Source: Thiomicrospira aerophila AL3 (lineage in GTDB: Bacteria; Pseudomonadota; Gammaproteobacteria; Thiomicrospirales; Thiomicrospiraceae). Taken from it: a DNA stretch of 64,000 nucleotides. Location: positions 62,001 through 126,000 of the forward strand of contig NZ_CP007030.1 in the NCBI RefSeq assembly GCF_000227665.2, given 5' to 3'. Each line of letters opens with the position of its first letter. Positions within the stretch are counted from its first letter, which is position 1. The position numbers and the translations under genes were made by a program. This document shows, piece after piece, positions 31,273-63,985 of this stretch. The notes beneath the pieces were generated by a model. The model worked only from the letters and a program-made list of their open reading frames with translations, searched no databases and was not told the origin of the DNA.

Positions 31273-31296
31273 GATATTTTCCTTCGAAGCGGTGGT

Positions 31297-38331: not shown

Positions 38332-38421
38332 TAAAATCGTGAAAATGAGAAGGATTTGCAGGTAAAGTAAATAAATATTGGTAAAATGCATTAACTTAAT
38401 CACCTTTGTGGAGGTCGTAAA

Positions 38422-39255: not shown

Positions 39256-39284
39256 ATTTATGATGGTAATTACAAGGAGTTAAA

Positions 39285-39863: not shown

Positions 39864-39942
39864 TATTAGTATAATCTAATGTTGCTGTGTTGTTAGCCGG
39901 TTTAGTTAACAACACTTATTTGATTTCATAAAGGTTAGTAAC

Positions 39943-41265: not shown

Positions 41266-41271
41266 AGGATT

Positions 41272-41610: not shown

Positions 41611-41638
41611 GCTGATTAGTATTTGGCGTCATTTAAGT

Positions 41639-41664
41639 AACGGCCACGGAAGTGGCCGTTTTTA
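41639..41664 (+). terminator. Rho-independent terminator after the SQR-like operon
   Basis: AACGGCCAC (41639-41647), a GGAA tetraloop and GTGGCCGTT (41652-41660), followed by TTT. Perfect stem, 29 bases after the stop of the small membrane protein. Confidence 0.9.
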
Positions 41665-41689
41665 TATCGGATTTTAGCAGGGTTTAGTC

Positions 41690-43635: not shown

Positions 43636-43660
43636 TATTTAAAAAGGTTTGAAGGGAAGC

Positions 43661-44110: not shown

Positions 44111-44167
44111 AAACGTGATAAAAAATGGGTAAGTTGCGATATAAATGCTTTTTTTATCACAGTCTTA

Positions 44168-44176
44168 TGCTAGAAT
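44168..44176 (+). promoter_or_regulatory. Candidate extended -10 promoter of the OmpA-like gene
   Basis: TGCTAGAAT (44168-44176) matches an extended -10 (TGnTATAAT with one mismatch), 44 bases before the ATG. No good -35 is seen at standard spacing. Confidence 0.4.
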
Positions 44177-44219
44177 TTTGTTAAAGAAAATTAATAACCT
44201 CGTTTCTAGGAGAAACACC

Positions 44220-44834: not shown

Positions 44835-44855
44835 GTTAGTTTGCAACCAATCGCC

Positions 44856-44891
44856 TAGGGGCGATAGTTTTTAACTATCGCCCCTATTTTT
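44856..44891 (+). terminator. Rho-independent terminator after the OmpA-like gene
   Basis: TAGGGGCGATAGTT (44856-44869) pairs perfectly with AACTATCGCCCCTA (44873-44886) over a TTT loop, followed by five T. Confidence 0.93.
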
Positions 44892-44921
44892 ATAATTAAT
44901 TATGCAAAAAATAATTCTCGC

Positions 44922-44948
44922 TATAATTGCTTATAACTTAATAAGTTA
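44922..44948 (+). promoter_or_regulatory. Promoter with adjoining dyad upstream of the peroxiredoxin-glutaredoxin gene
   Basis: A perfect TATAAT at 44922-44927 is followed by TAACTT-AAT-AAGTTA (44934-44948), a perfect 6-base inverted repeat overlapping the expected transcription start. The dyad may be an operator; no regulator is adjacent. The -35 element is poor. Confidence 0.4.
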
Positions 44949-44982
44949 AATTTATTGTCTATCGTTAACTAGGAGTAAAGCT

Positions 44983-45732
44983 ATGGCATTAGTCAACAAA
45001 GAAGGTCAGAAAGTTCCAAACGTAACCTTTCCTACGCGTCAGAACGGCGAATGGGTTAATGTGACTTCAGATGAGTTATTTAAGGGTAAAACGGTGATTT
45101 TGTTCGCACTTCCTGGTGCGTTTACTCCTACCTGTTCATCAACCCACTTACCACGTTACAATGAGTTAGCACCGGTTTTCTTTAAAAATGGTGTGGATAG
45201 TATTGTGTGCTTATCTGTTAACGATACCTTCGTTATGAACGAATGGGCCCGTGATCAAGAAGCTGATAACGTCATTTTGCTACCTGATGGCAATGGTGAG
45301 TTCTCTGAAGGCATGGGTATGTTGGTTGATAAAAACAACCTAGGCTTTGGTAAGCGTTCATGGCGCTACTCGATGTTAGTCAAAGATGGTGTTGTTGAAA
45401 AAATGTTCATCGAGCCAGAAGTAGAGGGCGATCCATTTGAAGTATCTGATGCCGATACAATGTTACATTACATCAACCCTAATGCGGCTAAGCCACCTGT
45501 TGCAACCATTTTCACCAAAATCGGTTGCCCATTCTGTGCTAAAGCTAAAGCGGCATTAGAAGATGCGGGCATCAAGTACGAAGAAATTATGATTAGCAAC
45601 AGTGGTTTAACGTCTCGCACCTTGCGCGCTGTAGCAAATCGCGACACCGTACCGCAAGTATTTATCGAAGGCCAGCACATTGGTGGTTCCGATGATTTAG
45701 AAGTTTACTTGGCAAAACAAAAAACCGCATAA
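44983..45732 (+). CDS. Peroxiredoxin-glutaredoxin fusion (hybrid Prx5)
   Basis: A 249-residue two-domain thiol peroxidase. The Prx5-type domain is at residues ~1-165 with the peroxidatic Cys in [13 protein letters not shown] (Cys49). A short linker precedes a glutaredoxin domain (~172-249) with the CPFC active site and the GSH-binding [18 protein letters not shown]. The fused glutaredoxin recycles the peroxidase with glutathione, as in Haemophilus influenzae hyPrx5. A glutathione reductase gene lies immediately downstream, giving a complete NADPH-GSH-peroxide pathway. GGAG precedes the ATG. Its upstream region carries a promoter and a dyad. Confidence 0.95.
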
Positions 45733-45765
45733 TTTCGGCCGTTTTGTTAATAACTAAGTAACAAG

Positions 45766-45807
45766 CAGGGAGTAAAACCTCATATTAGGGTTTTGCTCCC
45801 TGTTTCA
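45766..45807 (+). terminator. Terminator between the peroxiredoxin fusion and gor
   Basis: CAGGGAGTAAAACC (45766-45779) pairs with GGTTTTGCTCCCTG (45789-45802), with one G-U pair, over a 9-base loop, followed by TTTCATTT. It separates the two redox genes, so gor probably has its own promoter or relies on read-through. Confidence 0.85.
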
Positions 45808-45846
45808 TTTCTAGCCTTTAATAGATAGGCGCTATAAGGATAATAG

Positions 45847-47202
45847 ATGAAATACGATTATGATTTGATTGCGATTGGTGGCGGTAGCGGCGGTTTGTCG
45901 GTAGTTGAACGCGCAGCTGAATACGGTAAAAAATGTGCGGTAGTTGAAGCTAAAAAACTGGGTGGCACTTGTGTCAATATCGGTTGTGTGCCTAAAAAAG
46001 TTATGTGGTTTGGTGCGCACATTGCGGAAGCGCTGCGTGATGCGCCTGATTATGGATTTGATCTTGATGTTAAAGGATTTTCGTGGGCCAAGTTAGTCGA
46101 GCAGCGTGAAACTTATATTAAAAATATCAACACCTGGTTTGGTGGCTACATGGAAAAACTGGGTGTCGATGTACTACAAGGCTGGGGTCGGTTTGTTGAT
46201 GCCAATACCATTGAAGTTGATGGTAAACGTTATACAGCTGAGGTGATTGTGATTAGTCCTGGTGGTGTACCGGATATTCCACAAGAAACCGAAGGGGCGG
46301 AATTGGGCCTGACTTCAGATGGTTTTTTTGCGTTAACCACACAGCCTAAAAAAGTCGCGGTTATTGGCAGTGGCTATATTGCGGTTGAATTGGCTGGTGT
46401 ATTTCAAGCCTTAGGTACAGATGTCAGTTTATTGAGTCGTAAAGACTTGGTGCTGCGCGGTTTTGATGACATGATTCGTGAAACCCTAACAGACGCGATG
46501 ATTGAAAGCGGTATCCACAAGGAATACCATTTCCGAGTTAAAAAACTAGAACGTGTCGCTGATGGTACGATTACCGTGATCAGTGAGGATGGCCAATGTC
46601 TGACTGGTTTTGACGAGGTGGTCTGGGCAGTGGGTCGCCGTAATTTGCTTGAGCCTTTGGCGCTTGAAAATGTCGGCATTGAACCAACTAATCGCGGCAC
46701 CATTGAGGTGGATTCTTGCCACCATACAGGTGTGGCGAATATCTATGCCATCGGTGATGTAACCGGTCAACCCCAATTGACCCCAGTGGCGATCCGAGCT
46801 GGACGTTTCTTGGCCGAGCGTTTATACAATGGTAAGCCTCATTTAAAGCTAGATCTACATGCGGTGCCAACGGTCATTTTCTCGCACCCTCCGGTTGGTA
46901 CGGTGGGCTTAGCGGAGCATGACGCGCGTAAAGCCTATGGTCATGATAATGTAAAAGTTTATACCTCGGTATTTACCCCAATGCGTTATGCCTTTACGCA
47001 ACACCAAATCAAAACCGCTTTAAAGCTGGTGGTATATGGGCCTGAGGAGCGAGTGGTCGGCATTCATATTGTGGGTGATGGTGCTGATGAAATGTTGCAA
47101 GGTTTTGCGGTTGCCGTGCAAATGAACGCGCGTAAATCAGATTTAGATGCAACGATCGCGATTCATCCGAGCTCAGCAGAAGAGCTGGTGACGATGCGTT
47201 AA
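45847..47202 (+). CDS. gor: Glutathione-disulfide reductase
   Basis: A 451-residue homodimeric flavoenzyme that reduces GSSG with NADPH. It shows FAD binding IGGGSGGLSVVERAA near 11-25, the redox disulfide GGTCVNIGCVPKK near 39-51, NADPH binding GSGYIAVELAGVF near 177-189 with the following SRKDLVLRGFD basic patch, a second FAD site YAIGDVTG near 301, and the catalytic HPSSAEE (HPTxxE) near 441. Length is that of E. coli Gor (450). It supports the upstream peroxiredoxin-glutaredoxin fusion. Its stop is 7 bases from the convergent waaA stop. Confidence 0.96.
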   Translation: MKYDYDLIAIGGGSGGLSVVERAAEYGKKCAVVEAKKLGGTCVNIGCVPKKVMWFGAHIAEALRDAPDYGFDLDVKGFSWAKLVEQRETYIKNINTWFGGYMEKLGVDVLQGWGRFVDANTIEVDGKRYTAEVIVISPGGVPDIPQETEGAELGLTSDGFFALTTQPKKVAVIGSGYIAVELAGVFQALGTDVSLLSRKDLVLRGFDDMIRETLTDAMIESGIHKEYHFRVKKLERVADGTITVISEDGQCLTGFDEVVWAVGRRNLLEPLALENVGIEPTNRGTIEVDSCHHTGVANIYAIGDVTGQPQLTPVAIRAGRFLAERLYNGKPHLKLDLHAVPTVIFSHPPVGTVGLAEHDARKAYGHDNVKVYTSVFTPMRYAFTQHQIKTALKLVVYGPEERVVGIHIVGDGADEMLQGFAVAVQMNARKSDLDATIAIHPSSAEELVTMR

Positions 47203-47208
47203 GCTTGA

Positions 47209-47243
47209 GTTAACGGCCTAGCGCAAGTCGGTAGGCCGTTAAC
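47209..47243. repeat. 12-base perfect inverted repeat at the gor/waaA convergence
   Basis: GTTAACGGCCTA (47209-47220) and TAGGCCGTTAAC (47232-47243) are exact complements around 11 bases. The repeat includes the waaA stop codon and its last ten or so codons. No T run follows on either strand, so it may be a Rho-assisted or bidirectional transcript end, or an RNA 3' end stabiliser. Confidence 0.8.
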
Positions 47244-48421
47244 ACATCCGGTTGTTGCGCAATAAGTTGGGCTGCGCGAGTGCCATAACGCTCGCGCAAC
47301 GTAGCGTTAGTCAGTAGCTGATTAAGTCGCTGTTGCAGTTTTTCATAATTAGGGCAAATAATCAGCCCACCTTCCTGTTCAAACAAGGTCGCTTCAGGCG
47401 CAAAGTCACGATTATCAGGGCCGGTTAGAATGCATCGTCCGTACGCAGCGGCCTCTAAAAAGTTATGCCCTCCTTTCGTTACAAAAGATCCTCCCATAAC
47501 GACGATTTTGGCATGTTCAAACCAAACTAATAGCTGACCAAATCGATGCTCAATACACACCAGGCCTGGTGGCGGTGTTGCGGGGAGTGCGTCAGCCAAA
47601 CAGACCATAGCACCGTGTTGCTGCAGGGTTTTAAACAAGCGTTGCGCGTGATGTGGATGGCGGGGTGCCACAACCAATAATTCGGTGCGACCCAAGGCTA
47701 ACCAATGTTCAATCAAGGCGATATCCTCACCTTGATGCGTTGAGGCCATAACGACGTAGTCTGCACTAGTCGGTGTCGGTTGATGTCGAGGCTGTTGAAG
47801 GTTACTGAGTTTTAGATTACCCACTACCTGTATTTTGTCAGCGCCAGCACCTAGGTTGATAAAATCTTCTTTATCAGTAGGGTGACGTACCATGATGATA
47901 TCGCAGGCATTAAAGCAGGCCTGGTAAGCCTGTTTGAGCCAGGCTGGTGCTCGCAGGCTTTTGGCTGAAAGGCGACCGTTAATTAAATGAATGGTCAGGC
48001 CTGCTTTTTTGGCGGTTTGATATAAATTAGGCCAAAGTTCCGTTTCTACTACCCACAGCGCTTGCGGTTGCGCTTGAGCTAAAAAGCGCTGAATAGCACT
48101 GGGATAGTCGAGGGGTAAATAAGCGAGTTGAAGCAGTGGATGGCTAATCGACTGCGCAGCACGCATTCCGGTAGGGGTATTGCAGGTGATAAGCCAGGCC
48201 TGCTCAGGTTCAGCTTGGATTAATGGCGTGACTAGACGAACCTCGCCCACTGAGGCACAGTGAATCCAAATAGGTTGAGCAGGCCTGCTGGTGAAGCGGT
48301 AGTCAAAGCCTAACCGCTGAAAAATAAAGCGCCAGCCCCCTTGTCGCTTAACCGCCTCCCAAGCTAGCCAAATGAGTAGCAGCGGTGCGATTAAGCGAAT
48401 AAGCAGTTGGTAGCGCCACAT
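47210..48421 (-). CDS. waaA: Kdo transferase (WaaA/KdtA)
   Basis: A 403-residue GT30 glycosyltransferase anchored by an N-terminal hydrophobic segment (LLIRLIAPLLLIWLAWEAV). It attaches Kdo-type sugars to lipid IVA at the inner membrane. It shows the conserved HCASVGEV near 55 with the acidic catalytic region, FVETELWPN-like WVVETELWPNL near 125, LINGRLS, and GGSFVTKGGHNFLEAAAYG near 313-331. It is the last gene of the gmk-kdnA-kdnB-kdsB-waaA run, so it may accept CMP-Kdo8N. Five CAGGCCTG copies lie in this one gene, the highest count in the window. The C-terminal codons form half of a long inverted repeat. Confidence 0.93.
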   Translation of the reverse strand: MWRYQLLIRLIAPLLLIWLAWEAVKRQGGWRFIFQRLGFDYRFTSRPAQPIWIHCASVGEVRLVTPLIQAEPEQAWLITCNTPTGMRAAQSISHPLLQLAYLPLDYPSAIQRFLAQAQPQALWVVETELWPNLYQTAKKAGLTIHLINGRLSAKSLRAPAWLKQAYQACFNACDIIMVRHPTDKEDFINLGAGADKIQVVGNLKLSNLQQPRHQPTPTSADYVVMASTHQGEDIALIEHWLALGRTELLVVAPRHPHHAQRLFKTLQQHGAMVCLADALPATPPPGLVCIEHRFGQLLVWFEHAKIVVMGGSFVTKGGHNFLEAAAYGRCILTGPDNRDFAPEATLFEQEGGLIICPNYEKLQQRLNQLLTNATLRERYGTRAAQLIAQQPDVLTAYRLALGR

Positions 48422-48432
48422 CCGAACAGGAC

Positions 48433-49178
48433 CTAATGACCCGATAACAACAAGGCTTCCATGATCTCTAGATCACCCGGCACATCAACCTCGGGGGAAT
48501 CGTAGCGACTTTCAACCACCTTGATTTTATGCCCCTGCTCCAATACGCGCAATTGCTCTAACTTTTCAATATCCTCTAAACGACCCAGTGGCCAGCGCGC
48601 ATATTGATCGACAAAAGACTTGGTGTAAGCATAGACGCCAAGATGCTTGTAGGAGTCGTGATCCCAATAATCACGGCCATGCGGGATGGTTGCACGTGAA
48701 AAGTACAGCGCAAAGCCATGAATGTCGGTGACCAGTTTGACATCTTTAGGGCTGGTGATTTCGGCTTCGTTGATGATTTTGAATGAGAGAGTGCTCATCG
48801 CAAATGAGCCATCATAATCGGCTGATTTAAACGGCGCAATCACCGACTCAATCGACTCGTGATGCACTAACGGCTGATCACCCTGTACATTGACGATCAA
48901 ACAATCATCGGGCAAATTCAATGCCGCTGCGGCGGCCGCAATACGGTCAGTGCCTGATGCCGCTTCTAACGGTGTCATCACCACATCACCGCCAAAGTCA
49001 CGCACCACGCTTGCAATGCGTTCATCATCGGTTGCTACATAGACACCGGCTAAGCCCTCTGCTTTAGCAATCCGCTCATAAACATGCTGAATCATCGGTT
49101 TGCCGGCAATCAGTTTTAACGGTTTGCCCGGCAGTCGTGAGCTGCCGTAACGCGCGGGAATAAAAACGACCGTTTGCA

Positions 49179-49179
<1 letters not shown>
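48433..49179 (-). CDS. kdsB: CMP-Kdo (probably CMP-Kdo8N) cytidylyltransferase
   Basis: A 248-residue cytidylyltransferase. It shows the N-terminal IPARYGSSRLPGKPL (CTP loop), VATDDERI near 50, VNVQGDQPL near 96-104, FSRATIPHGRD near 152 and the C-terminal YDSPEVDVPGDLEIM. E. coli KdsB activates Kdo; in Shewanella the orthologue next to kdnA/kdnB activates the 8-amino sugar. The neighbours here favour the amino-sugar substrate, which sequence inspection alone cannot prove. Its ATG overlaps the kdnB stop by one base (TAATG). Confidence 0.92.
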
Positions 49180-51462
<2,283 letters not shown>

Positions 51463-52077
51463 TCAGGTTGGTATAAGTTGGGTTAATAAACTGGCGTGTT
51501 TAACTTGTTGATAGCCTAGGGTTTGCCGCTTGGCCACAAAAATACTATGCAAATGCATGAGCGCGCTATCAAAGTCATCGTTAATAATGAGGTAATCAAA
51601 TTCGTGATAATGGCTTAACTCGCTGACCGCTTCACTCATGCGTTTCGCAATCACTTCTGGGGCGTCGGTACCGCGACCTTTCAAGCGACGTTCTAGCTCG
51701 CTAAACGACGGCGGGGCGATAAAGATGCTAGTGAGCTGAGTAAATTGTTGTCGAATTTGTTGCGCACCTTGCCAGTCGATTTCTAAAATAACATCCAAGC
51801 CGGCATCTAATTGTTGCATCACCGTGGTGCGACTGGTGCCATAGTAGTTATCAAACACCTTGGCGTGTTCTAAAAAAGCACCATCAGCCACTTGTTGTTC
51901 AAAGGTGGTTTTATCGACAAAATGGTAGTTTACGCCATCACGCTCTCCCGGTCTGGGTGGACGTGTAGTGGTGGACACCGATACTTTAATCATCGGGTCT
52001 ATTTCGAGTAAACGGGTGACGAGTGAGGTTTTGCCAGCACCTGAAGGTGCTGAGATAACATAGAGTTGACCTAACAT
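51463..52077 (-). CDS. gmk: Guanylate kinase
   Basis: A 204-residue nucleotide kinase converting GMP to GDP. P-loop SGPSG-like [11 protein letters not shown] is at residues 9-19, with the GMP-binding [19 protein letters not shown] near 35-53 and [11 protein letters not shown] near 94. Length is typical (207 in E. coli). It is the first gene of an operon that continues with kdnA, kdnB, kdsB and waaA, an unusual coupling of a housekeeping nucleotide kinase with LPS sugar genes. In enterobacteria gmk is instead next to rpoZ. Divergent from aroK. Confidence 0.96.
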
Positions 52078-52179
52078 AACAATACACTAATGATAAATAG
52101 TCTAACAGTTTATCAAAAAAACCATCATTTTCCTGTAGGTTTTGCGCCGCAATGCATAAATTTTGGATACAATTTCCTC

Positions 52180-52707
52180 ATGAATAAACAAAGTATTTTT
52201 TTAGTCGGGCCGATGGGCGCCGGAAAATCGACCGTTGGGCGGATTTTGGCCGAAAAATTGGGCTATGAGTTTATTGATAGTGACCATGAAATCGAGGCAC
52301 GCACCGGTGTCACCATTCCGGTCATTTTCGATATTGAAGGCGAAGGCGGATTTCGGGCGCGTGAATCCGCAGTGATTGATGATATTACCCAATTACCAGG
52401 CCTGGTGCTCGCAACCGGTGGCGGTGCGGTATTGTCTGCCGATAATCGCCGACACCTGGCCGCACGCGGGTTTGTGGTGTACTTGCGTTCTACCGTACCA
52501 GCTTTAGTGCAGCGTACTAAAAATGATCGCAATCGTCCGCTATTGCAAACTGATAATCCTGAAGCGGTGATTGCGCACTTACTAACAGAGCGAGGCCCGC
52601 TTTATGAAGAAGTCGCAGACCTGATTGTAGATACGCAACAGGCATCCGTGTTTCGTGTGGTGCGCCATATTCAGGATCAGTTGGTGCGCGAAGGCGTTGT
52701 AGCCTAA
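52180..52707 (+). CDS. aroK: Shikimate kinase
   Basis: A 175-residue enzyme phosphorylating shikimate at O3. Walker A is [11 protein letters not shown] near 9-19, shikimate-binding [11 protein letters not shown] near 32-42 (DxD and the following Arg), GGEGGFR-like [11 protein letters not shown] near 53-63, ATGGGAVL near 77-84 and the LID region [11 protein letters not shown] near 111. The start is ATG 52180, giving the family N-terminus; the frame is open to 52090. aroB follows after 57 bases, the usual aroKB arrangement. CAGGCCTG at 52397. Confidence 0.95.
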
Positions 52708-52764
52708 ACGAGCTGATTACTCAATGCTATTTTCGAACCTTTAACCGAATCTTAGGACAGTCCA

Positions 52765-53844
52765 TTGATAACCTTAACCGTAGATTTAGCCGAACGCAGT
52801 TATCCGATTTATATCGGCCAAGACTTGTTGCAACAACCTGAATTGCTGCCCCCTTTTGTTAAAGGCACGCAGGTGATGATTGTGACCAATACCACCGTCG
52901 CGCCTTTATATTTGGAGGCCTGTAAGGCGTTGTTTGCCGGGTTTAAAGTGGACGCGGTGGTGTTGCCGGATGGTGAAGCCTATAAAAATCTTGAGATTTT
53001 AAACCGTATTTTTGATCAGCTGATTGGCGGCCATTTTGATCGCAAATGCACGCTGGTGGCATTAGGTGGCGGCGTGATCGGCGATATGACCGGTTTTGCG
53101 GCGGCGGCCTATCAGCGTGGTGTGCCGTTTATTCAAGTGCCGACCACGCTCTTGTCGCAGGTGGATTCGTCTGTCGGCGGCAAAACCGGGGTGAATCACC
53201 CGCAGGGTAAAAATATGATTGGTGCGTTTCATCAGCCACAAGCGGTGCTGATTGATACCAATACCCTAAATACGCTGGAAAACCGTCAACTATCAGCAGG
53301 CCTGGCGGAAGTGATTAAATATGGCCTGATTCGTGATTTGCCGTTTTTTGAATGGTTGGAGCAGCATCTTGAAGGTTTGATGGCGCGTGACCCAGCCTTG
53401 TTGGCCGAGGCGATTGAGCGTTCGTGCCGGAATAAAGCCGAGATAGTGGCGGCGGATGAAACCGAGCAAGGCCAGCGCGCGCTGTTGAATTTAGGCCATA
53501 CCTTTGGGCACGCCATTGAAGCGGGCATGGGTTATGGTGCGTGGTTGCATGGCGAGGCGATTAGCGCCGGGATGATGCAGGCGGCCTATATGTCGCAGCT
53601 GTTGGGCGACTTGAGCGCGGCGGATGTGGCGCGGATTGCGGCCTTGTTTAAACGCGCTAAACTGCCGATTTATCCGCCAAATGAACTGAGCAACGCGCAG
53701 TTTATGCAGTATATGGCGGGTGACAAAAAAGTGCAGGCCGGGGTGGTGCGTTTGGTCTTGATGAAGTCAATCGGTCAGGCTTATATTAGTGGTGATTACC
53801 CGGCAGACACGCTGAGCAAAACCTTGACGGATTGGCGTAACTAA
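52765..53844 (+). CDS. aroB: 3-dehydroquinate synthase
   Basis: A 359-residue Zn- and NAD-dependent enzyme of the shikimate pathway, converting DAHP to 3-dehydroquinate. Motifs: [10 protein letters not shown] near 73-82, [45 protein letters not shown] near 99-143 (quoted region contains the active-site Lys and Asp residues), and zinc ligands in [12 protein letters not shown] near 243-254 and LHGEAIS. The start codon is TTG at 52765, supported by AGGA 8 bases upstream and by alignment with the family start. Forms aroK-aroB. CAGGCCTG at 53297. Confidence 0.96.
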
Positions 53845-53882
53845 GCGGGTTCATTTCTGCTCACTCAATGCCAGTTAAATTC

Positions 53883-53955
53883 AGCCTTAGCTATCCCTGA
53901 ACGCCGCCTCTTTTTGCGCAGCAAAAATCGAAGGCGGGAAGGGATAGTTAAGGCT
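53883..53955. repeat. 73-base nested inverted repeat between aroB and the mutarotase gene
   Basis: AGCCTTAGCTATCCCT (53883-53898) pairs with AGGGATAGTTAAGGCT (53940-53955) with one G-U. Inside, CCGCCT (53904-53909) pairs with AGGCGG (53932-53937) and TTTTTGC (53911-53917) with GCAAAAA (53921-53927) around a GCA loop. The whole element folds into one long stem-loop. No T run follows, so it is not a simple terminator; a mobile-repeat (REP/MITE-like) or RNA-processing role is possible. I saw no second copy in the window. Confidence 0.85.
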
Positions 53956-54013
53956 CTCAAATGTGTTTCTTAACAACTTGCTATCTGCTTCCAACATACT
54001 TTAAGGACCTACC

Positions 54014-54916
54014 ATGCTCGACTATTTACAACAGCGTTTTGACCACCCTAATGTGCGCTTTTATCAGCGTGACCAATTAATCATGATTGAATTAAAGAAC
54101 GGTTATGGTCAAGCGACCTTAACCACTCATGGCGGGACCTTATTAAGCTATATTCCCGCTGGTGGGCAGGACCTATTGTGGGTGAGTGATACCGCTATTT
54201 ATGATGGCAGCAAGCCCGTGCGTGGTGGCGTGCCAGTATGTTGGCCGTGGTTCGGCGGCTATGATGCCAGTAAGATGGGTGCACATCCAACTGATGCGGC
54301 TAAAAAGGCCCATGGTTTTGCGCGCTATGAGTTGTGGGAGGTTGAATCACTGGAAAGTGTGGGCGATGCCACTCAGTTGGTGTTAAGCCTTGTACCGAAT
54401 GAACGGATTCAGCAGGCCTGGCCGTTTGATTTTAAATTGAGCCTAGCGGTTACCTTGGGTAAGCAATTGCGTGTTGAACTGATTGGCGAAAATCGCAGTG
54501 ACCAGGCCTGGTTTGTAACCGAAGCCTTGCATACCTATTTTAAGGTCGCCAAAGCACCAGGCATGGTGATTGAAGGTTTAGAAGGCATTACTTATTATGA
54601 TAAAAACCAAGATTTTGCACCTTTCACTCAAGCAGATACTCTAAAAGTACAAGCGCCGATGGATTGCGTCTATGTCGATCATAGCGTTAGCGTGGTGTTA
54701 AAGGATCACGACCGTGATATCCATATCGATAAAACTAACAGCGCCAGCACCATTGTGTGGAATCCGGGTGCCGAAGGCGTCAAAGCCTTTGCCGATATGC
54801 CCGATGATCAGTATCAACACATGGTGTGTGTTGAGGCGGGCAACGCGCTGCAAAACGGCTACGAATTGGCAGCGGGAGAGCGTCATACCATGAGTATGAC
54901 CTTAGCGGCCCGCTAA
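54014..54916 (+). CDS. D-hexose-6-phosphate mutarotase (YeaD family)
   Basis: A 300-residue aldose-1-epimerase-fold protein. It shows GGTLLSYIPAGGQDLLWVS near 42-60, RGGVPVCWPWFGG near 72-84, the catalytic HGFARYELWEV near 101 and EALHTYFKV near 173, and the C-terminal VWNPGAEGVKAFADMPDDQY near 252. It interconverts the alpha and beta anomers of glucose-6-phosphate-type sugars. AAGGAC precedes the ATG. The gene stands alone between the long inverted repeat and a convergent phosphatase gene whose stop is 4 bases away. CAGGCCTG at 54413 and 54503. Confidence 0.92.
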   Translation: MLDYLQQRFDHPNVRFYQRDQLIMIELKNGYGQATLTTHGGTLLSYIPAGGQDLLWVSDTAIYDGSKPVRGGVPVCWPWFGGYDASKMGAHPTDAAKKAHGFARYELWEVESLESVGDATQLVLSLVPNERIQQAWPFDFKLSLAVTLGKQLRVELIGENRSDQAWFVTEALHTYFKVAKAPGMVIEGLEGITYYDKNQDFAPFTQADTLKVQAPMDCVYVDHSVSVVLKDHDRDIHIDKTNSASTIVWNPGAEGVKAFADMPDDQYQHMVCVEAGNALQNGYELAAGERHTMSMTLAAR

Positions 54917-54920
54917 ACTA

Positions 54921-55487
54921 TTACTCAAACACTTCAATCGCGATTAAATCAAACAAACCATCACCCATTGGTTGCAACACGGCCACATAGCCAGGTTGCA
55001 CCCGTTGGTGAATCAATTCACCAATATTCGGGCGATGGGTCACCATAATCAAATTACCTTCACCCTCATAATCCCCAATCAACTGTGCCAGTTGGCGAAG
55101 GTTGGCTTTGGCTTGTTCTTCAGTCAGAGCGCGAATTAAGCGTAAAATGGGTTGCACCTCATAGTCACCAAATGCCAATTCAGCGGTGTCTTTAGTGCGA
55201 CAGTGTGGGCTGGCCCATACTGCGGTAATTGGAACCTGCTGTGCCTTGAATGCTTGCCCAATCGCTGTAGCTTGCGCGCGGCCTTCGTCAGATAAATTGC
55301 GCTCAATAAAACAGGAAGGATCTAGTGAAAAAGGATCACCAACAGCATCATCATCCAGTTTCGCGTGTTGCATTAGCACCACTTTGCCCCCTTCTTGTAA
55401 CGCCTGCCAAAAAGGCGAGGCCGCTAAACTGTGGCTGCTGAATATAGCGAGCAGTATGCCTAAAGTAACGTGATAATGCTTTACCAT
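54921..55487 (-). CDS. Exported histidine phosphatase-family protein with altered RHG motif
   Basis: A 188-residue protein of the phosphoglycerate-mutase/histidine-phosphatase fold. Starting at ATG 55487 (AAGGA upstream) leaves a signal peptide (MVKHYHVTLGILLAIFSSHSLAAS), so it is periplasmic. The usual RHG is replaced by QHA (VVLMQHAKLD near residue 40); the His nucleophile remains. The later ASPHCRTKDTAELAFG and MVTHRPNIGEL (second catalytic His) are kept. Members of this exported subgroup often have QHA or RHA and unknown substrates. It could be an active phosphatase of changed specificity or a lytic/binding protein. Confidence 0.85.
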   Translation of the reverse strand: MVKHYHVTLGILLAIFSSHSLAASPFWQALQEGGKVVLMQHAKLDDDAVGDPFSLDPSCFIERNLSDEGRAQATAIGQAFKAQQVPITAVWASPHCRTKDTAELAFGDYEVQPILRLIRALTEEQAKANLRQLAQLIGDYEGEGNLIMVTHRPNIGELIHQRVQPGYVAVLQPMGDGLFDLIAIEVFE

Positions 55488-55577
55488 TGTTAATCCTTGG
55501 GATTTAATATGTAACATAAATGAGTTTATGTTTATTTTAGCCTAGAACCTTCGTCGGTTTTCAAGTGGAGCAGGTAA

Positions 55578-55916
55578 ATGATTAATGAACTGGTCAGTGG
55601 GGTTTTAACCGGCTTTTCCGAATTATTGCGCCCTTATTTGAGTGAGTTGGGATTAGCGATGATGGCCTCTTTGTTGGTCATTTATGGCAATGACATTATG
55701 GACTTGCTTAAACAACAAATTGGCGGATTGAACTTTGTGCTTAAATTAACCCTATTTATTGTTTTTTGTGCGGTTGGGTTTGGATTGTTAACCAGCTTGG
55801 TTACGCCTTGGTTGATTTCACTGTTAGCGGAGTTAGACAATTTGTGGTTAGGTTTAGCGGTATTGGGCTTGTTTTATTTGATAGGCTTTTTGGCTAAAAA
55901 ACGTGGGGTGCTTTAG
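55578..55916 (+). CDS. Small inner-membrane protein, DUF3392-like
   Basis: A 112-residue protein with three hydrophobic helices (~25-41, 52-78 and 90-106) and an N-terminal amphipathic part (LVSGVLTGFSELLRPYLSELG). It ends in the basic AKKRGVL. The layout and sequence style match the short DUF3392 proteins of marine gammaproteobacteria; function unknown. GAGCAGG precedes the ATG. The stop is followed by the CAGGCCTG-based hairpin shared with sodA. Confidence 0.75.
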   Translation: MINELVSGVLTGFSELLRPYLSELGLAMMASLLVIYGNDIMDLLKQQIGGLNFVLKLTLFIVFCAVGFGLLTSLVTPWLISLLAELDNLWLGLAVLGLFYLIGFLAKKRGVL

Positions 55917-55934
55917 TTAGAAGTTGTTAATCAT

Positions 55935-55961
55935 AACCAGGCCTGCAGATCAGGCCTGGTT
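55935..55961. terminator. Hairpin made of two inverted CAGGCCTG copies between convergent genes
   Basis: AACCAGGCCTG (55935-55945), loop CAGAT, CAGGCCTGGTT (55951-55961): an 11-bp perfect stem, 18 bases after the DUF3392-like stop and 10 before the sodA stop on the other strand. T runs are short on both sides (GGTTATT), so its strength as an intrinsic terminator is uncertain, but the position fits a bidirectional terminator. Confidence 0.75.
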
Positions 55962-55971
55962 ATTGTCAGGC

Positions 55972-56580
55972 TTATTTGTTTAATTGATACAGGTCTGCAG
56001 CTTTGTTCCAATTAACCACGTCCCACCAGGCATTAATGTAGTCTGGGCGACGGTTTTGGTAGCGCAAATAATAGGCGTGTTCCCATACATCTAAACCAAG
56101 AATCGGTGAACCTTTCACCTCAGCAATGTCCATTAAAGGGTTGTCTTGGTTAGGTGTCGAGGTAATTTGTAATTTACCTTCACCGTTGACAATTAGCCAC
56201 GCCCAGCCCGAACCAAAACGGGTTAAACCGGCTTGGGTAAATTGAGTTTTAAAGGTATCAAAGTCGCCAAAGGTGGCTTTAATGTCATCCGCTAACTCAC
56301 CCGTAGGTGCGCCCATGCTATCTGGGGTCATCAAGTCCCAAAAAAAGCTATGGTTCCAGTGACCACCGCCATTGTTACGTACCGCCGGTGAAATCGCACC
56401 AGCATGACGAACCAAATCCTCTAGATCTTTACCTTCATGCTCGCTGCCAGCCAGTGCATTATTTAAGTTGGTGATATAGGTGTTGTGGTGTTTTGAGTGA
56501 TGGATTTCCATCGTTTGTGCATCAATTGCAGATTCGAGCGCGTTGTAGTCATAGGCTAGATCGGGCAGTTTAAAACTCAT
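55972..56580 (-). CDS. sodA: Superoxide dismutase, manganese type by sequence
   Basis: A 202-residue cytoplasmic enzyme dismutating superoxide. Metal ligands are His near 27 ([13 protein letters not shown]), His near 79 ([11 protein letters not shown]), and Asp and His in DVWEHAYY (~163-167). GGGH rather than the AAQ of E. coli SodB, and a Gln in [10 protein letters not shown] where Fe enzymes have Ala, both point to Mn or cambialistic use. GAGGA precedes the ATG. The gene is separated from ycgL by its own hairpin and so is probably transcribed alone. Metal use is inferred from residues only. Confidence 0.93.
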
Positions 56581-56669
56581 AGTGTGTTCCTCTGATTAAA
56601 ATTAACGGGTAAATCCAAAACATAATACAGACGTTATACATTCTATATGTAAATGGCGTCGGGTTAAAG

Positions 56670-56688
56670 CCCTAGTGTTTTACTAGGG
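56670..56688 (-). terminator. Hairpin between ycgL and sodA
   Basis: CCCTAGT (56670-56676), a 5-base loop and ACTAGGG (56682-56688) form a perfect stem 24 bases below the ycgL stop on the minus strand. Only CTTTAA follows, so termination may be weak. The plus side has TATTAAAAA. Confidence 0.5.
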
Positions 56689-56712
56689 TATTAAAAACCC
56701 AACTAGCGCTAG

Positions 56713-57021
56713 CTAGTAAATATTGTCCAAGCGTTCTGGTGGTGGCGCCATATCACTGAGTTTTTCAATTTCTTGTGGTGGCAGTTGAATAAAATAGCCT
56801 TTGGTCTGAAGCGCATCCCACACTTTTTGGGGGTCTTCACGGCCCATTTTGCGCGTTGGCGTCATCTCAAAATTCAGCACCAACTTAGGGTCACCGAACA
56901 TGACTAATAATTCTTGTGGTAATTCATTCAAGGCGGTTGTTTGTGGAATGATGAGGTAGAGTTCGTCTTTTTTGCTGCTTTTGTAAGCTGAAACCGGCAA
57001 GCTGGATTGCGCTGAGGCCAT
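56713..57021 (-). CDS. YcgL-domain protein
   Basis: A 102-residue protein of the YcgL family (about 90-110 residues). It contains VSAYKSSKKDELYLIIP near 11-27, LPQELLVMFGDPKLVLNFEMTPTRKM and VWDALQTKGYFIQLPP, which are family landmarks. The role is unknown. The gene stands alone, divergent from the NDUFA9-like gene. The stop lies in a CTAG-rich palindromic stretch (56703-56717). Confidence 0.88.
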   Translation of the reverse strand: MASAQSSLPVSAYKSSKKDELYLIIPQTTALNELPQELLVMFGDPKLVLNFEMTPTRKMGREDPQKVWDALQTKGYFIQLPPQEIEKLSDMAPPPERLDNIY

Positions 57022-57206
57022 AGTATCTCCGAATTTGACTAGATAAATAAATCGTTACGCGCTATTGTAACGCATTAGCAGCAAGGTTTTCTGGCTTGAC
57101 CCGCGAAGGCCTTTTCCTTAAGATGCTGCAACATTTTTTAACACGTTATCACAATGACTAGACTAAGCTCTTAGAATACAAATACATAATTAGGGTTGCA
57201 TAACAG

Positions 57207-58178
57207 ATGATGAAATTTGGTAATAAAGTCGTGGTGCTAGGCGCCGGCGGCTGGGTAGGGCGCGAAGTCATTGCTCGCTTAAGTGAACAAAAATATCAGG
57301 TAACTGCCGTGGTCAAGCGGGCCTCGCGTAATCGTGAGCTTGCGCTCTATCCAAATGTCAAAGTACGCGATGTGCTGGATTGGTCATTAGACAAGGTAGA
57401 GGGTTATTTAGCCGACCAAGATATTGTGATTAATCTATTAACCGATCAGTCGAATAACAACGAAGCTTGTCCAGATGATCGTTTGCGTGAGTTGCAAGCA
57501 GGCCTGGTGTTGGCAGCCGAAGAGCAGGCGATTGCGCGCTGGGTGCAGTTATCTCATTTAGGGGCCGGTGTGCAGGCTGCGACGCCTTGGGCACAATTAT
57601 GTGCCATCCTTGATGATATGGTGCAGGCCTCTCGCTCAATGTTAGTGACCATTATGCGACCAGGCCTGCTGATTGGTCAGGGTGATGACACGACCACGCT
57701 TTATAATGCCCAGCTTCAGCGCGCAAAGTTTATGATGCTGCCGTATGCTGAACGTCAAGTTCAACCGCTCTGGATTCGTGACTTTGCACGCGCGCTAGTC
57801 CTAGCTATTAAGCAAGCGGCTAGTTATGGCAAGGTTTGGGAGTTGGCGGGTGATGAGCCTATGTCAGTTCAAGATCTCGCCAGCTGGGTTGCTCAGTTCC
57901 AGGGTATTGATAATCCTACGCTCTTACCAATGTGTCAAATGAACGCTAAGTTTATGGCACTGCTTGGGCCTTTAGCGCCTTTCAGAGTCACCACGTCTTA
58001 TCAAAATAAACGTTTAGCCAATGACCAATTGACGGAGCAGGAATTTGCGGCCTTGACCGGTTTTAAACCACGCCAGATTGAAGCGGTACTCAGTGACTAT
58101 ATCAGTCAAATGAAAACCCGCCAGCGTTATGACTTCTTGCGTCGTAATGCGGGTCGTAATTCGACACCGAGTGCTTAA
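57207..58178 (+). CDS. NDUFA9-like atypical SDR / NAD(P)H-binding protein
   Basis: A 323-residue extended-type short-chain dehydrogenase relative. An N-terminal nucleotide-binding loop (VVLGAGGWVGREVIARL near 9-25) and SHLGAG near 114 are seen, and the canonical YxxxK is not clear, which fits the atypical group that includes mitochondrial NDUFA9. Bacterial members are often annotated as complex I NDUFA9-family proteins; function open. It lies 2 bases upstream of cca, so the two genes form an operon. CAGGCCTG at 57499 and 57661. Confidence 0.8.
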   Translation: MMKFGNKVVVLGAGGWVGREVIARLSEQKYQVTAVVKRASRNRELALYPNVKVRDVLDWSLDKVEGYLADQDIVINLLTDQSNNNEACPDDRLRELQAGLVLAAEEQAIARWVQLSHLGAGVQAATPWAQLCAILDDMVQASRSMLVTIMRPGLLIGQGDDTTTLYNAQLQRAKFMMLPYAERQVQPLWIRDFARALVLAIKQAASYGKVWELAGDEPMSVQDLASWVAQFQGIDNPTLLPMCQMNAKFMALLGPLAPFRVTTSYQNKRLANDQLTEQEFAALTGFKPRQIEAVLSDYISQMKTRQRYDFLRRNAGRNSTPSA

Positions 58179-58180
58179 GA

Positions 58181-59425
58181 ATGGACGTCTACCTAGTCGG
58201 CGGTGCGGTTCGGGATGCGTTGCTCGATATTCCAATTGCCGATCGTGACTGGGTGGTCGTCGGTGGCAGTGTCGAGCAAATGCTTGAGCTCGGCTGTCAG
58301 CAGGTCGGTAAAGATTTTCCGGTGTTTTTACATCCGGTCAGTCGTGAAGAATATGCGCTTGCACGTACCGAGCGCAAACAGGGACGTGGCTATCATGGTT
58401 TTGAAGTCAATGCCGATGCCAGTGTCACGCTTGAAGAAGATTTGTTGCGTCGCGATTTAACCATCAATGCCATGGCTGTGGCGGAAAATGGCGACCTGAT
58501 TGACCCTTATGGCGGTAAGCGGGATTTAGATGCACGCATTTTGCGTCATGTTTCGCCTGCTTTTCAAGAAGACCCCTTGCGAGTGCTGCGGGTGGCGCGC
58601 TTTCGTGCTCAATTAGCGGAAAAAGAGTTTGTCATTGCGCCTGAAACCCTCTCGTTGATGCAAGACATGGCGCAGAGTGGCGAATTGCACGCGTTGGTGC
58701 CTGAGCGAGTATGGCAAGAGGTAAGCAAGGCATTAATGACGGCTAAGCCCAGTTTGTTTTTTGATACCTTGCATCAAGTGGGTGCGTTAGCGGTGTTGAT
58801 GCCGGAGTTAGATGTGTTGTTTGCAGTGCCACAATCACCCCAACACCATCCTGAGGGCGATGCCGGCACCCATAGTTTAATGGTGCTCGATGCCGCCGCA
58901 CGTTTACGTGATGACTTGGCGATTCGCTTTGCCGCCTTAGTGCATGACCTGGGCAAAGGAGTGACACCGGAAGACTATTGGCCGTCACACCCTCAGCATG
59001 AGATGGCTGGGGTGCCGCTCGTAAATGCACTATGTCAGCGCTATCGTGTGCCAAAAACAATTCAGCGCTTAGCGGTTCGGGTGACCGAATGGCATGGTCA
59101 AATTCACGCTGGTGGCCCTAGCATGCCATTGTCTGATCAATTAGCGGTGTTAAAAGGTTGTGATGCGTTTCGTCAGCCGGATGAATTTGATGCCATCTTG
59201 ACGGTGTGTGAGGCAGATAGTCGCGGCCGACTTGGTTTTGAGAATCAGTCTTATGAACAAAAAGCCTATTGGCGAGGTGCGTTGTTGGCGGTGCAGGGCG
59301 TGGACGCACGCAGTTTAGTATCTGCAGGCCTGCAAGGCGAAGCGATGGCGCAGGCGATTGAGCAATTGCGTTTAGCCTGTTTGGATAATTTTTGTACCCG
59401 CTGGTTGGACGAGCAAGATTCATAA
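58181..59425 (+). CDS. cca: Multifunctional CCA tRNA nucleotidyltransferase
   Basis: A 414-residue class II nucleotidyltransferase that adds or repairs the 3' CCA of tRNAs. The head has YLVGGAVRDALL near 4-15 and the catalytic DRDWVVVGG (DxD) near 21-29, then RRDLTINAMA near 90 and the EDPLRVLRVARF neck motif near 129-140. A C-terminal HD domain (ALVHDLGKG near 251) gives phosphatase/phosphodiesterase activity, as in E. coli Cca (412). Gap of 2 bases to the upstream SDR. CAGGCCTG at 59325. Confidence 0.96.
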   Translation: MDVYLVGGAVRDALLDIPIADRDWVVVGGSVEQMLELGCQQVGKDFPVFLHPVSREEYALARTERKQGRGYHGFEVNADASVTLEEDLLRRDLTINAMAVAENGDLIDPYGGKRDLDARILRHVSPAFQEDPLRVLRVARFRAQLAEKEFVIAPETLSLMQDMAQSGELHALVPERVWQEVSKALMTAKPSLFFDTLHQVGALAVLMPELDVLFAVPQSPQHHPEGDAGTHSLMVLDAAARLRDDLAIRFAALVHDLGKGVTPEDYWPSHPQHEMAGVPLVNALCQRYRVPKTIQRLAVRVTEWHGQIHAGGPSMPLSDQLAVLKGCDAFRQPDEFDAILTVCEADSRGRLGFENQSYEQKAYWRGALLAVQGVDARSLVSAGLQGEAMAQAIEQLRLACLDNFCTRWLDEQDS

Positions 59426-59498
59426 AGTATTCATCATGGCTTGGACATTGTTTTGCACACTAGCCGCACTTAATTCTCAAAATATTAAAAGGTAGGCC

Positions 59499-60758
59499 AT
59501 GAAGGCAACACGCTCTTTTGCTTGGATAATCAAAACGATTGTTGTGCCACTACTCATTCTGTTGCTTGGCTTGGGTGTATTCAATTACCTTAAAAGCACC
59601 AAGCCTGTCGCCGAAGCAATTGATATCGAAGAGCGCGCTTGGCCTGTCGAAATCCTGTCTTTAACCCAGCACCAAACAGATTCGCAACTAGCCCTGGTGG
59701 GTCGTGTTGAGACCCAGCAACGGATTCGTTTGCATGCACCTTTAAATGCCGATCTTGTCCGTTTACCCTTGCAAGTAGGTGAGGAGTTTGAGGCGGGTGC
59801 GGAGTTGATGGCATTTGATGATAATCAAATCAGCTGGCAGCTGCAATCAGCGCAAGCTGATTTGAGCGAGGCGCAAGCCTTGTTTGTGGCTGAGCAAACC
59901 CAGCAAGCTAGTGAGCGCGAAAAACTGGCGCGGGAAGCGGCGTTGTTGGCGCTTAAACAAACAGATGTTGCGCGCAATCAGCAATTGGTTGCGCGTGAAC
60001 TGGCGTCTCAGCAGGTGGTTGATCAAGCCCAGGAAGCCTTGAATCGTCAGGAACTCACTTGGCTGAACGCCAAGCTTCAAGTGGAGCAACAAGCGAGTCG
60101 TTTAGCCCAAGCGCAGGCGCGTTTAGAACGTGCACAGGTGCAGCTAGATACGGTGCAACGTCAAGCGGGTCAGGCGCGTTATCTTGCGCCAATGGCGGGT
60201 CGGGTGATGGCACGGCATGCGGCTGAAGGTGAGCCGCTCACTCAAAATAGCCCAGTACTCGATTTTTACAGCCTCGATAGTTTGGAGTTGCGAGTGACTC
60301 TGCCATTGGAACAGGTGGCGGCGATTCGCCAGGCGGTGACCAGTCATCAGCCCATAATCGGACGAGTGTTGCCGAATGAAGAGGCAGTGGTGTTTTCGAG
60401 GTTTGATGCGTCCGCCAGTGTGCGAGGGTTAGATGCCTGGCTGGCTTTTGCCAACCCAAGTGATAGCAGGCCTGGTGAAATGCGTGAAATTATTTTATCT
60501 GTTCCGCTGGCGGAATCCGCCTTTGCGGTGCCTTACAGTGCACTTTATGGTCAAAATCGTGTTTATGTTATAGATGGCGAGCGTTTAGCGGCACGCAGTG
60601 TTCAGCGCGTTGGCGATTGGATGCAGGGCAGTCAGCGTTGGGCGCTGGTTGTGGGTGAATTGGCATTGGGTGAGCAGGTTCTTGTAACACAGCTGCCCAA
60701 TGCGGTTGGGGGATTGCGGGTTCGGGTGCTGAATCAGCTTGATGGAGTCACGCCATGA
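59499..60758 (+). CDS. RND efflux periplasmic adaptor (membrane fusion protein)
   Basis: A 419-residue protein anchored by one N-terminal helix (IKTIVVPLLILLLGLGVFNYL, ~10-30). It then has the biotinyl-lipoyl half-motif, a long coiled-coil hairpin (~110-215, Gln/Ala/Glu-rich), the second lipoyl half (YLAPMAGRVMARHAAEGEPL) and beta-barrel and membrane-proximal domains. It bridges the inner-membrane pump and an outer-membrane channel. Its stop overlaps the pump start by four bases. No TolC-like gene or local regulator is in the window, so it probably uses a shared channel. CAGGCCTG at 60467. Confidence 0.92.
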   Translation: MKATRSFAWIIKTIVVPLLILLLGLGVFNYLKSTKPVAEAIDIEERAWPVEILSLTQHQTDSQLALVGRVETQQRIRLHAPLNADLVRLPLQVGEEFEAGAELMAFDDNQISWQLQSAQADLSEAQALFVAEQTQQASEREKLAREAALLALKQTDVARNQQLVARELASQQVVDQAQEALNRQELTWLNAKLQVEQQASRLAQAQARLERAQVQLDTVQRQAGQARYLAPMAGRVMARHAAEGEPLTQNSPVLDFYSLDSLELRVTLPLEQVAAIRQAVTSHQPIIGRVLPNEEAVVFSRFDASASVRGLDAWLAFANPSDSRPGEMREIILSVPLAESAFAVPYSALYGQNRVYVIDGERLAARSVQRVGDWMQGSQRWALVVGELALGEQVLVTQLPNAVGGLRVRVLNQLDGVTP

Positions 60759-63700
60759 GCAAGCGCAGTCGTCGCGGCTTAATTGGTTTGTTTACCTATC
60801 ACAAGGTCGCTGCCAATTTGTTGATGTTGCTGATGATGTTGGCCGGTGCGGTGGCGCTAATGCGCTTAAATGTGCAGTTCTTTCCAAATTTTGATTTAGA
60901 TTATGCGCAGGTGCGGGTGATTTGGCCTGGTGCCAATGCGCAGGATGTGGAGCAGAGTGTCACTAATCCGATTGAGCGTGTTTTGAGGACCGTTGAAAAT
61001 CTCGATGAAATGACGTCGACCTCCGCACTCGGTTCATCGTTAGTGACGCTTAAGTTTAAAGAAGGCACCAACATGATTGAGGCGGTCGATCAAGTGCGTC
61101 AGCGGGTCACCGAGCTGCGCAATCTACCGCAAGATATTCAAACCCCCATTATTGAGCGCATTCTGCGTTATGAGCCCATTGCTAAAGTATTGTTGTTAGG
61201 CCAGCCAGGTGATGCGGAGGGTTTGCGTGAAATGGCGCGGCAATTTGAACGAGAGTTATTGGATCGCGGTGTTGATCGCGTAACCTTTCGTGGTCGTCCA
61301 ACGGAAGAGCTGGCCATAGAGTTACCGCTGGCGGCGCAACAAAGTTATCAATTAAGTATTGCGCAGGTTGCCGAGCAAATCAGTGGTTTAAGCCGCGATG
61401 TGCCGGCAGGTCAAATAGGTTTTAATGATGCGACCCGTGATGTAAGAGCGTTAGAGCAACGTCGTGAAGTCAATCATTTTGCCGATTTACCTTTGCAGGT
61501 CAGTGATACCGAGCAACTGCGTTTGGGCGATGTGGCACACGTCATTTTGCGTCCTGTACGAGAAGCGACCTATTTAACGGTCGATGAGCGTCCTGCCATT
61601 GAATTGTATCTGCAGCGTTCTGAAACCGGCGACACACTCGCCTCGTCACGGATTATGCAGGCCTGGTTGGATGATACCTTGCCCCATTTGCCGCAAGGGG
61701 TTGATTTGCTGGTCTATGACGAAACTTGGTCGCTGGTTAAAGAGCGGATTATGCTGCTGGTGAAAAACGGGCTGGGTGGTTTGCTTCTTGTGCTAGCGAT
61801 TTTGTATATTTTCTTAAACGGACGGGTCGCTTTTTGGGTGGCCGTCGGTATTCCGGTGTCGTTTTTAGCAACCCTGATGGTGCTCTATTTGGCCGGTGGC
61901 AGTATCAACATGATAAGTCTGTTTGCGTTGATTATGGCGCTGGGAATTATTGTCGATGATGCGATCGTGGTGGGTGAGGATGCGCTAACCCATTATGAAC
62001 AAGGCGAGTCACCCGGAGAAGCGGCCGCTGGCGGGGCGAAACGCATGTTTACGCCGGTTATGGCCTCATCCTTAACTACTATTGCCGCCTTTTTACCCCT
62101 AATGATCATTGGCGGTGAAATTGGTGGCATTTTAGTGGCTATTCCGATGGTCATTATTTCAGTCATTTTAGTGTCGCTGGTGCAGTGCTTTTTAGTCTTG
62201 CCTGGTCATTTACGTTTTGGTTTGGGCTTATTTAACGGTGCAGAGCCTGCCTGGCGTAAGCAATGGGATAGCGCATTTGGACGTTTTAGACAGGTCTATT
62301 TCCGTGCTGTGATACGCTGGGTGCTGAATAATCGGGTCAGTATGGTAGCGATGACCTTTAGTTTGATTCTGTTGATTATCGGTTTAATTGCCGGTGGACG
62401 ATTGAGTTTTACCTTCTTCCCGTCGCCTGAATCGAATCGAATCAATGCCTCTGTGCAATTTGTATCGGGCACGCCAGAACAAGTCACGGCTGATTTTATG
62501 CGTGACGTCTATCAAGCTTTGCGTGATGTTGAACAAGCTTTAGAGCCTGGTATCGTTAAAACAGCGGTATTGGCCTACAATCAGGGGTCTAGTGCCAGCA
62601 GTGGTGTGTATGGTGCGATTCAGATTGAGCTTATTCCATCCGATCACCGCCAAACCCGTAATATTACGCTGATGCAGGCCTGGCGCGAACGCGTGCCTAG
62701 TGCGCCGGGATTAGAAAATTTTAATATTGCCGCGCAAACCGGTGGGCCGCCTGGGCGTGATATACAAATTCAATTTACCGGTGCCGATGCTGAACGACTG
62801 AAACTCGCTTCGGAAGCCTTACAGGCGGTGATAGAGGATCTGCCGGGTGTCAGTGGCGTGGCGGATGACTTGCCCTATGGCCGTCAGCAAATGGTCTATC
62901 AACTCACTCCTTATGCACAAGCTTTGGGTTTTACGACCAGTTCGATTGGAACACAATTGAGTAGTGCGTTTTCTGGTCAGCTCGCGCAGATTTTTACCCT
63001 GGGTGAAGACGAAATTGAAGTGCGAGTCATGTTGCCGCGAGAAGAACAGGCGCAATTAGCCTTGCTTAATCAGTTGCAGTTAGTGGCACCTAATGGTGAG
63101 TTTGTGAATTTGTCGCAGTTGGTCGAGTGGCGAACCCAGCAAGGCTTTGATGTATTGCGCCATTTCAATGGTCAGCTTGCGGTGACCGTTCTTGGTGACG
63201 TCGATCGTAGTCAAAACAATGCTAATCAAATTCTGGCCAGCTTACGCGAAACTACCCTGCCAGATATTCAACAGCGTTATGGGGTGAATTATAGTTTGGA
63301 AGGCACCGCCAAAAACCAAAGCAACACATTTGGTGATATGCTTATCGGGTTAATGCTAGGTTTGGTGCTGATTTATATTGTGCTAGCCTGGGTGTTTCAG
63401 TCTTATGGCTGGCCGCTTGTGGTGATGCTCGCCATTCCATTAGGACTGATTGGCGCGATTTTAGGCCATTATGTAATGGGTATTGGACTCACTATTTTGT
63501 CCTTATTTGGCTTGTTTGGTTTGGCTGGCATCGTGGTGAATAATGCCATTATTTTAGTGAGTTTTTATCAGCGGCTATTGGCGGAAGGCCTCAGTGTTAA
63601 TGAAGCGCTTGAAGAGGCGTCGGTGCAGAGGTTACGTGCAGTATTAGTCACCAGCTTAACGACCATTGCAGGTTTAACCCCGTTATTGTTTGAAACCTCG

Positions 63701-63871: not shown

Positions 63872-63985
63872 ATGCAGCCCCCACTTGAAGAATTTAGCAA
63901 ATTAAGCGAAAATAACCGACCATTTGTGTTTAGAAGCAAGGCGCAGGCCTGCTTACTCGGTTTTAAACACCCCGAATTTTTTTAA
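63872..63985 (+). CDS. Short open frame directly after the RND pump gene, doubtful
   Basis: A 37-codon frame beginning one base or less after the pump stop (TAAATG) and ending at TAA 63983-63985. Polar, with no recognised motif and no separate ribosome binding site apart from coupling. It contains a CAGGCCTG copy (63944) read as Gln-Ala-Cys. The 15 bases that follow to the window edge show nothing. It may be chance. Confidence 0.25.
   Translation: MQPPLEEFSKLSENNRPFVFRSKAQACLLGFKHPEFF

Follow-up and report, generated by a model that had tools for sequence, protein, structure and literature searches.

Why genomes accumulate short repeated words is an old open question. To our knowledge, uptake sequences are firmly known from just two families of bacteria, and iterated palindromes of the HIP type essentially from cyanobacteria.

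Work on uptake sequences has shown that they exist as species dialects (PMC3630211), and that facing pairs of them occur in terminators and are concentrated between convergent genes (PMC1852404). The extended uptake sequence of Haemophilus follows the pattern core-n-rwwwww-nnnnnn-rwwwww, with its phased tracts on one side (PMC1852404), and no known uptake sequence is palindromic (PMC1939737). For iterated palindromes, the standard account needs a cognate methyltransferase (PMC4390886).

Here, we describe a palindromic octamer, CAGGCCTG, two facing copies of which form a hairpin between convergent genes in the window (the whole stretch of DNA that was analysed, 64,000 nucleotides). The whole is best explained, with a probability of roughly 0.5, as an uptake-like palindromic repeat that has been locally reused as a terminator. 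A literature search, which could miss subscription papers, turned up nothing on CAGGCCTG nor on any uptake sequence of Thiomicrospira or Hydrogenovibrio. As read here, the repeat would be a clear case of a genome-wide word reused as RNA-end hairpins, and the close relatives within one family, carrying the word, a changed word or none, provide a natural experiment on the factor that drives it.

The hairpin at the sodB junction

An earlier note on this DNA had placed two facing motif copies at 55935-55961, in an 11-bp stem between convergent genes. The copies lie as placed, with 55935-55945 reading AACCAGGCCTG and its exact complement at 55951-55961 beyond the spacer CAGAT, and the stem actually extends to a perfect 13 bp (55933-55945 with 55951-55963, 100% complementary, 5-nt loop). 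Domain matches also bear out the two convergent genes. The features of the junction are as follows:

55578..55916, + strand: gene for a DUF3392 protein, upstream of the hairpin (PF11872, E 7e-30)
55933..55963, no strand: perfect 13-bp inverted repeat ATAACCAGGCCTG-CAGAT-CAGGCCTGGTTAT (sequence, folding and comparison with relatives)
55938..55945, no strand: CAGGCCTG copy 1, a palindrome (word search)
55951..55958, no strand: CAGGCCTG copy 2, a palindrome (word search)
55972..56580, - strand: gene for an Fe/Mn superoxide dismutase (sodB), convergent, with the hairpin at its 3' end (PF02777, PF00081)

The inverted repeat is separated by 16 bp from the DUF3392 gene and by 8 bp from the 3' end of sodB, which is encoded on the opposite strand. 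Folding gave -22.7 kcal/mol for the + strand (z -3.9 against shuffles) and -24.1 kcal/mol for the - strand (z -5.6), and the adjoining U-tract is poor on both strands. We propose 55933-55963 as an RNA 3'-end hairpin or weak bidirectional terminator. A role as a 3'-end hairpin is probable; termination we infer from its structure and position. Since the U-tract is weak in the window's genome (G000), the hairpin may either stabilise the RNA end or act as a weak terminator.

The strongest evidence that the motif pair holds a terminator's place comes from comparing the sodB junction among relatives. A stable hairpin, built from CAGGCCTG or a decayed form of it, is found at the sodB 3' end in seven of the nine congeners. 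Facing CAGGCCTG pairs stand directly past the sodB stop codon in G000, G002, G003, G007 and G008, with one arm degenerate in G002 and G008 and a U-rich tract present in G007, and the hairpins of G004 and G006 contain a decayed motif. In the remaining two congeners, G001 and G005, sodB is followed by a plain GC hairpin and a T-tract, an arrangement shared by six genomes of other genera (G011, G019, G020, G023, G028 and G033). Inspection by eye found no clear equivalent hairpin past sodB in three further genomes of other genera (G013, G029 and G031). In all six relatives the motif-type hairpin is more stable than its shuffles (z -3.4 to -8.8), and the stem sequences differ between species.

As to the superoxide dismutase itself (55972-56580), a search of named genomes, from which near genomes may be left out, gave one Piscirickettsiaceae MAG as the top match (76%), followed almost entirely by Bacteroidota (60-69%). 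This distribution suggests an ancient lateral acquisition of the gene.

The repeat in the genome and its relatives

The octamer CAGGCCTG is a perfect, GC-rich palindrome, and no other 8-mer of the window comes near it in over-representation, with 49 copies against 0.83 expected. Across the 2.16-Mb genome it occurs 1,128 times, or about once per 1.9 kb, compared with a single occurrence of the reversed control word. Genome statistics were drawn from whole-genome counts and a 464-kb sample. About 90% of copies are intragenic, and the sample holds 249 of them, about 223 in genes (0.52/kb) and 26 between genes (0.69/kb) by a home-made gene caller that counted as intergenic at least one copy (13457) actually inside a chorismate lyase ORF. 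The base beside the core is C or G in 94% of cases and the next is A in 77%, giving a preferred form A[CG]CAGGCCTG[CG]T; the copies are alike over only about 10-12 bp, and their flanks are unique. Coding copies fall mostly in two of the three phases. The longest copy-free stretches either hold ORFs sized like EF-Tu and the rpoB cluster or are free of ORFs, and from size only we infer that they are those genes or, where ORF-free, rRNA operons. Outside the sodB junction, the copies of the window are distributed as follows:

1110..62682, no strand: 45 further CAGGCCTG copies, nearly all within predicted ORFs or gene regions (word search)
3083..3090, no strand: intergenic CAGGCCTG copy lying 18 nt beyond the 3' end of a Sulf_transp (YeeE-type) gene (3109-3561), forming a 5-bp stem with 3071-3075
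63944..63951, no strand: intergenic CAGGCCTG copy lying 73 nt beyond the gene for an AcrB-type transporter

All four intergenic copies (3083, 55938, 55951 and 63944) lie just past a gene's 3' end. A second hairpin that the earlier note named at 3071-3088 fared less well: the 5-bp stem GGCCT/AGGCC exists, but the region is no more stable than its shuffles (-13.0 kcal/mol, z -1.3).

Conservation of the sites was gauged against GC- and phase-matched 8-mers. In DNA aligned with G002 (86.5% identity), 44 of 53 copies were retained where 20.5 were expected, and with G006 (81.6% identity) 50 of 73, where 16.8 were expected. Against stricter controls sharing the last codon, retention still gave p = 2e-3, 1e-8, 4e-10 and 5e-19. 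The repeat has also altered protein sequences genome-wide. The tripeptide Q-A-[C/W] occurs 120 times against 30.3 expected in G000 and 32 times against 7.2 in G006, compared with about 1x expectation in four motif-free genomes, and because this excess is confined to carriers the bias runs from DNA to protein.

The word is present in all nine genomes of the genus, at 840-1,128 copies each. Other genera of the family either have it, lack it or use a different word, and its distribution is patchy even within genera: counts of CCAGGCCTGG are 367-677 in the carriers of genus g6 and 0-1 in the rest, and range from 0 to 856 in genus g3. Dialects within the family include ACCAGGCCTGGT, ASCAGGCCTGST, ACCGGCCGGT or no word. 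In G001 the dialect is ACCAGGCCTGGT; G000, G002 and G006 tolerate C or G beside the core; G023 is less strict in its flanks and has few CCAGGCCTGG; and G029 lacks CAGGCCTG and has ACCGGCCGGT instead (47 CCGGCCGG in 100 kb). No dominant alternative word was found in the non-carriers G010, G016, G034, G035, G063 and G066.

Some relatives carry longer flanks. In G011, A/T-rich tracts lie on both sides of the core at a spacing of about one helical turn, in coding and intergenic copies alike, with a periodic amplitude, measured on 23 copies, of 0.118 against a random maximum of 0.033. The amplitude in G020 is 0.044 against a random maximum of 0.022, G028 and G031 are borderline, and the periodicity test found no phased A/T flanks in G000, G001 or G029.

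Other repeats were seen along the way. G030 and G032, which are without CAGGCCTG, hold a dispersed, longer, mostly intergenic repeat like AATCTRCCAGGYTGGGG (CCAGGCTGGG or CCAGGTTGGG); it resembles the motif with a lost base and may be unrelated. G016 holds a longer repeat containing GGCAGCTAAGAAA and CGCCAAGG, about 98 times in 100 kb sampled and apparently clustered. At L031:17455 and L031:18862, near-identical upstream regions, ttaccagtcaatc[tc]ttatacCAGGCCTGctatgaccga, each have a motif copy overlapping the gene start, and the two look like a duplicated gene.

Readings of the repeat and its facing pairs

The leading guess for the repeat, though a tentative one, is an uptake-type self-recognition word, ahead of a site for a nucleoid or repair protein and then of a methyltransferase-driven word. 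A sequence-specific DNA-binding factor would recognise CAGGCCTG, and the repeat would thereby be maintained across the genus and patchily in the family. Such recognition could serve to identify self-DNA in natural transformation, making the word a palindromic counterpart of the uptake sequences with their species dialects. Because many copies exist, two of them could come to face each other downstream of a gene and provide a ready-made hairpin, and pairs of this kind would be kept at the 3' ends of RNAs, as at the sodB/DUF3392 junction, where other genera hold ordinary terminators.

The likeness to uptake sequences drawn by the earlier note finds more support than anticipated. Dialects, conservation, convergent pairs, the phased A/T tracts of relatives and the want of a shared methyltransferase all agree with it, but its palindromic form sets the word apart from the uptake sequences known so far. 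One-mismatch variants of CAGGCCTG number 181 against 147 expected, only 1.23x, a thinner halo than expected from uptake drive, and this counts against the uptake reading. The lack of phased A/T flanks in G000, G001 and G029 and the poor U-tract of the 55933-55963 hairpin weigh against the overall explanation as well. The gene for the uptake channel, comEC (PF03772), is present in 34 of 36 genomes and does not discriminate, because it is equally present in motif-free relatives. A search for a receptor marker with PF12019 (minor pilin or pseudopilin) matched only in G010 and G016, both motif-free, and the marker was dropped for lack of a useful pattern.

Another reading, which we consider unlikely but which survives best among the alternatives, is a chromosome-organising site: a palindrome bound by a dimeric nucleoid, segregation or repair protein and unrelated to uptake, with paired copies co-opted as terminators. 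The perfect dyad symmetry, the symmetric extended flanks and the phased A/T tracts in some relatives are all like dimeric binding sites, and site conservation and the depletion of copies between divergent genes described below fit as well. SlmA, Noc and MatP sites are far fewer per genome, however, than one per 1.9 kb; no candidate protein was identified; and the motif is dispensable, because relatives with intact genomes are without it. Polar elements such as Chi or KOPS were rejected, since the symmetry of the word rules out polar roles.

A less probable reading is that two common copies came to face each other at 55933-55963 by chance and have no RNA role. The weak U-tracts of this hairpin would fit, as would the whole-genome count of motif pairs with a 0-25 bp gap, which at 12 against about 16 expected led us to reject a genome-wide enrichment of pairs. 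The deficit lies in coding pairs (5 against 13.7 expected). Intergenic pairs, which the earlier note had proposed to check against chance, are commoner than chance predicts (7 against 1.4-2.1 expected, P 0.0006-0.006). All seven map past a gene's 3' end, and in four cases the two neighbouring genes converge. The stems are mostly extended, reaching about 18 bp at the longest, and clear T-tracts accompany three of the pairs (L002, L004 and L006). Further, the sodB hairpins persist in seven of nine congeners despite their changing stem sequence, which counts against a chance meeting.

Over the nine genomes, intergenic copies reach a density of 2.5 events per kb between convergent genes, 0.81 between co-directional and 0.29 between divergent ones, the convergent excess having p = 2e-7 and the divergent depletion p = 1e-4, values that are optimistic because some of the nine genomes share orthologous regions. 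The earlier note had linked the repeat to RNA 3' ends or termination. For the intergenic minority the link is supported, on the strength of the intergenic pairs, the convergent enrichment and the sodB hairpins, but it is not supported as the repeat's general role, with about 90% of copies coding and pairs overall below expectation.

Lone copies can occur in hairpins as well. At L016:10952-10983, between convergent genes, a single CAGGCCTG sits at the apex of a 16-bp hairpin (AACCCCCACGCACCAGGCCTGGTGCGTGGGGGTT, -32 kcal/mol), so that the palindrome serves as the loop end and not as two arms. In G028 (L117-L121), several intergenic copies centre near-identical bidirectional terminators, AAAAAAACCGCCAGGCCTGGCGGTTTTTTT.

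Slightly more doubtful again is a HIP1-type origin, by which an orphan DNA methyltransferase with mismatch repair would have made and kept the palindrome, on the model put forward for cyanobacteria (Elhai 2015), the hairpins being incidental. The word is a palindromic octamer of similar density, some relatives have alternative palindromes like the alternative HIPs (PMC4390886), and its core GGCC is a typical methyltransferase target. Yet none of the four families searched (PF00145, PF01555, PF02086 and PF07669) supplies a DNA methyltransferase common to all carriers. PF00145 (C5 methyltransferase) is missing from the whole genus (nine genomes) and most other carriers, PF01555 from at least seven carriers (G002, G003, G011, G020, G023, G024 and G033) and PF02086 from nearly all. 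PF07669 has matches in all genomes, but those in G011 and G033 are the protein methyltransferases PrmC and PrmB, with PrmB of G033 named by resemblance. Site retention fits any maintenance process and is of no help here. With no methyltransferase shared in the searched families, the cyanobacterial explanation does not fit, and the model is not supported by these four Pfam families.

Finally, an artefact of codon or dipeptide bias, or a mobile repeat scattered in the manner of REP/BIME elements, is highly improbable. The mostly coding copies in two of three phases would fit, but the copies have only about 10-12 bp in common within unique flanks, Q-A-[CW] is enriched in carriers only, and the reversed control word occurs once in the genome.

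Comparison with known systems

With HIP1 and the alternative HIPs of cyanobacteria, the repeat shares its nature as a GC-rich palindromic octamer, its hundreds to thousands of copies and the existence of alternatives in relatives (PMC4390886). It differs in its non-cyanobacterial host, in having no shared methyltransferase in the four searched families, in the reuse of copies in 3'-end hairpins and in the long phased A/T flanks of some relatives.

The facing pairs resemble intrinsic (Rho-independent) terminators in that GC-rich stems of 9-18 bp closely follow stop codons, for the most part between convergent genes, and some are accompanied by T-tracts. They differ in that two copies of a word repeated across the genome make up the stem, and that at 55933-55963 the U-tract is weak.

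The USS of Pasteurellaceae and DUS of Neisseriaceae share with this repeat a density near one per 1-2 kb, coding copies, dialects, facing convergent pairs at gene 3' ends and, in G011 and G020, A/T tracts in helical phase. The present word differs in its perfectly palindromic core with symmetric flanks, its different bacterial family and its thin one-mismatch halo. It could, slightly more speculatively than the uptake reading itself, represent a third independent family of uptake sequences and the first palindromic one. Such a family would have species dialects, would be gained and lost within genera and would in some species be flanked symmetrically by phased A/T tracts; it would have shaped proteins genome-wide and would supply terminator stems.
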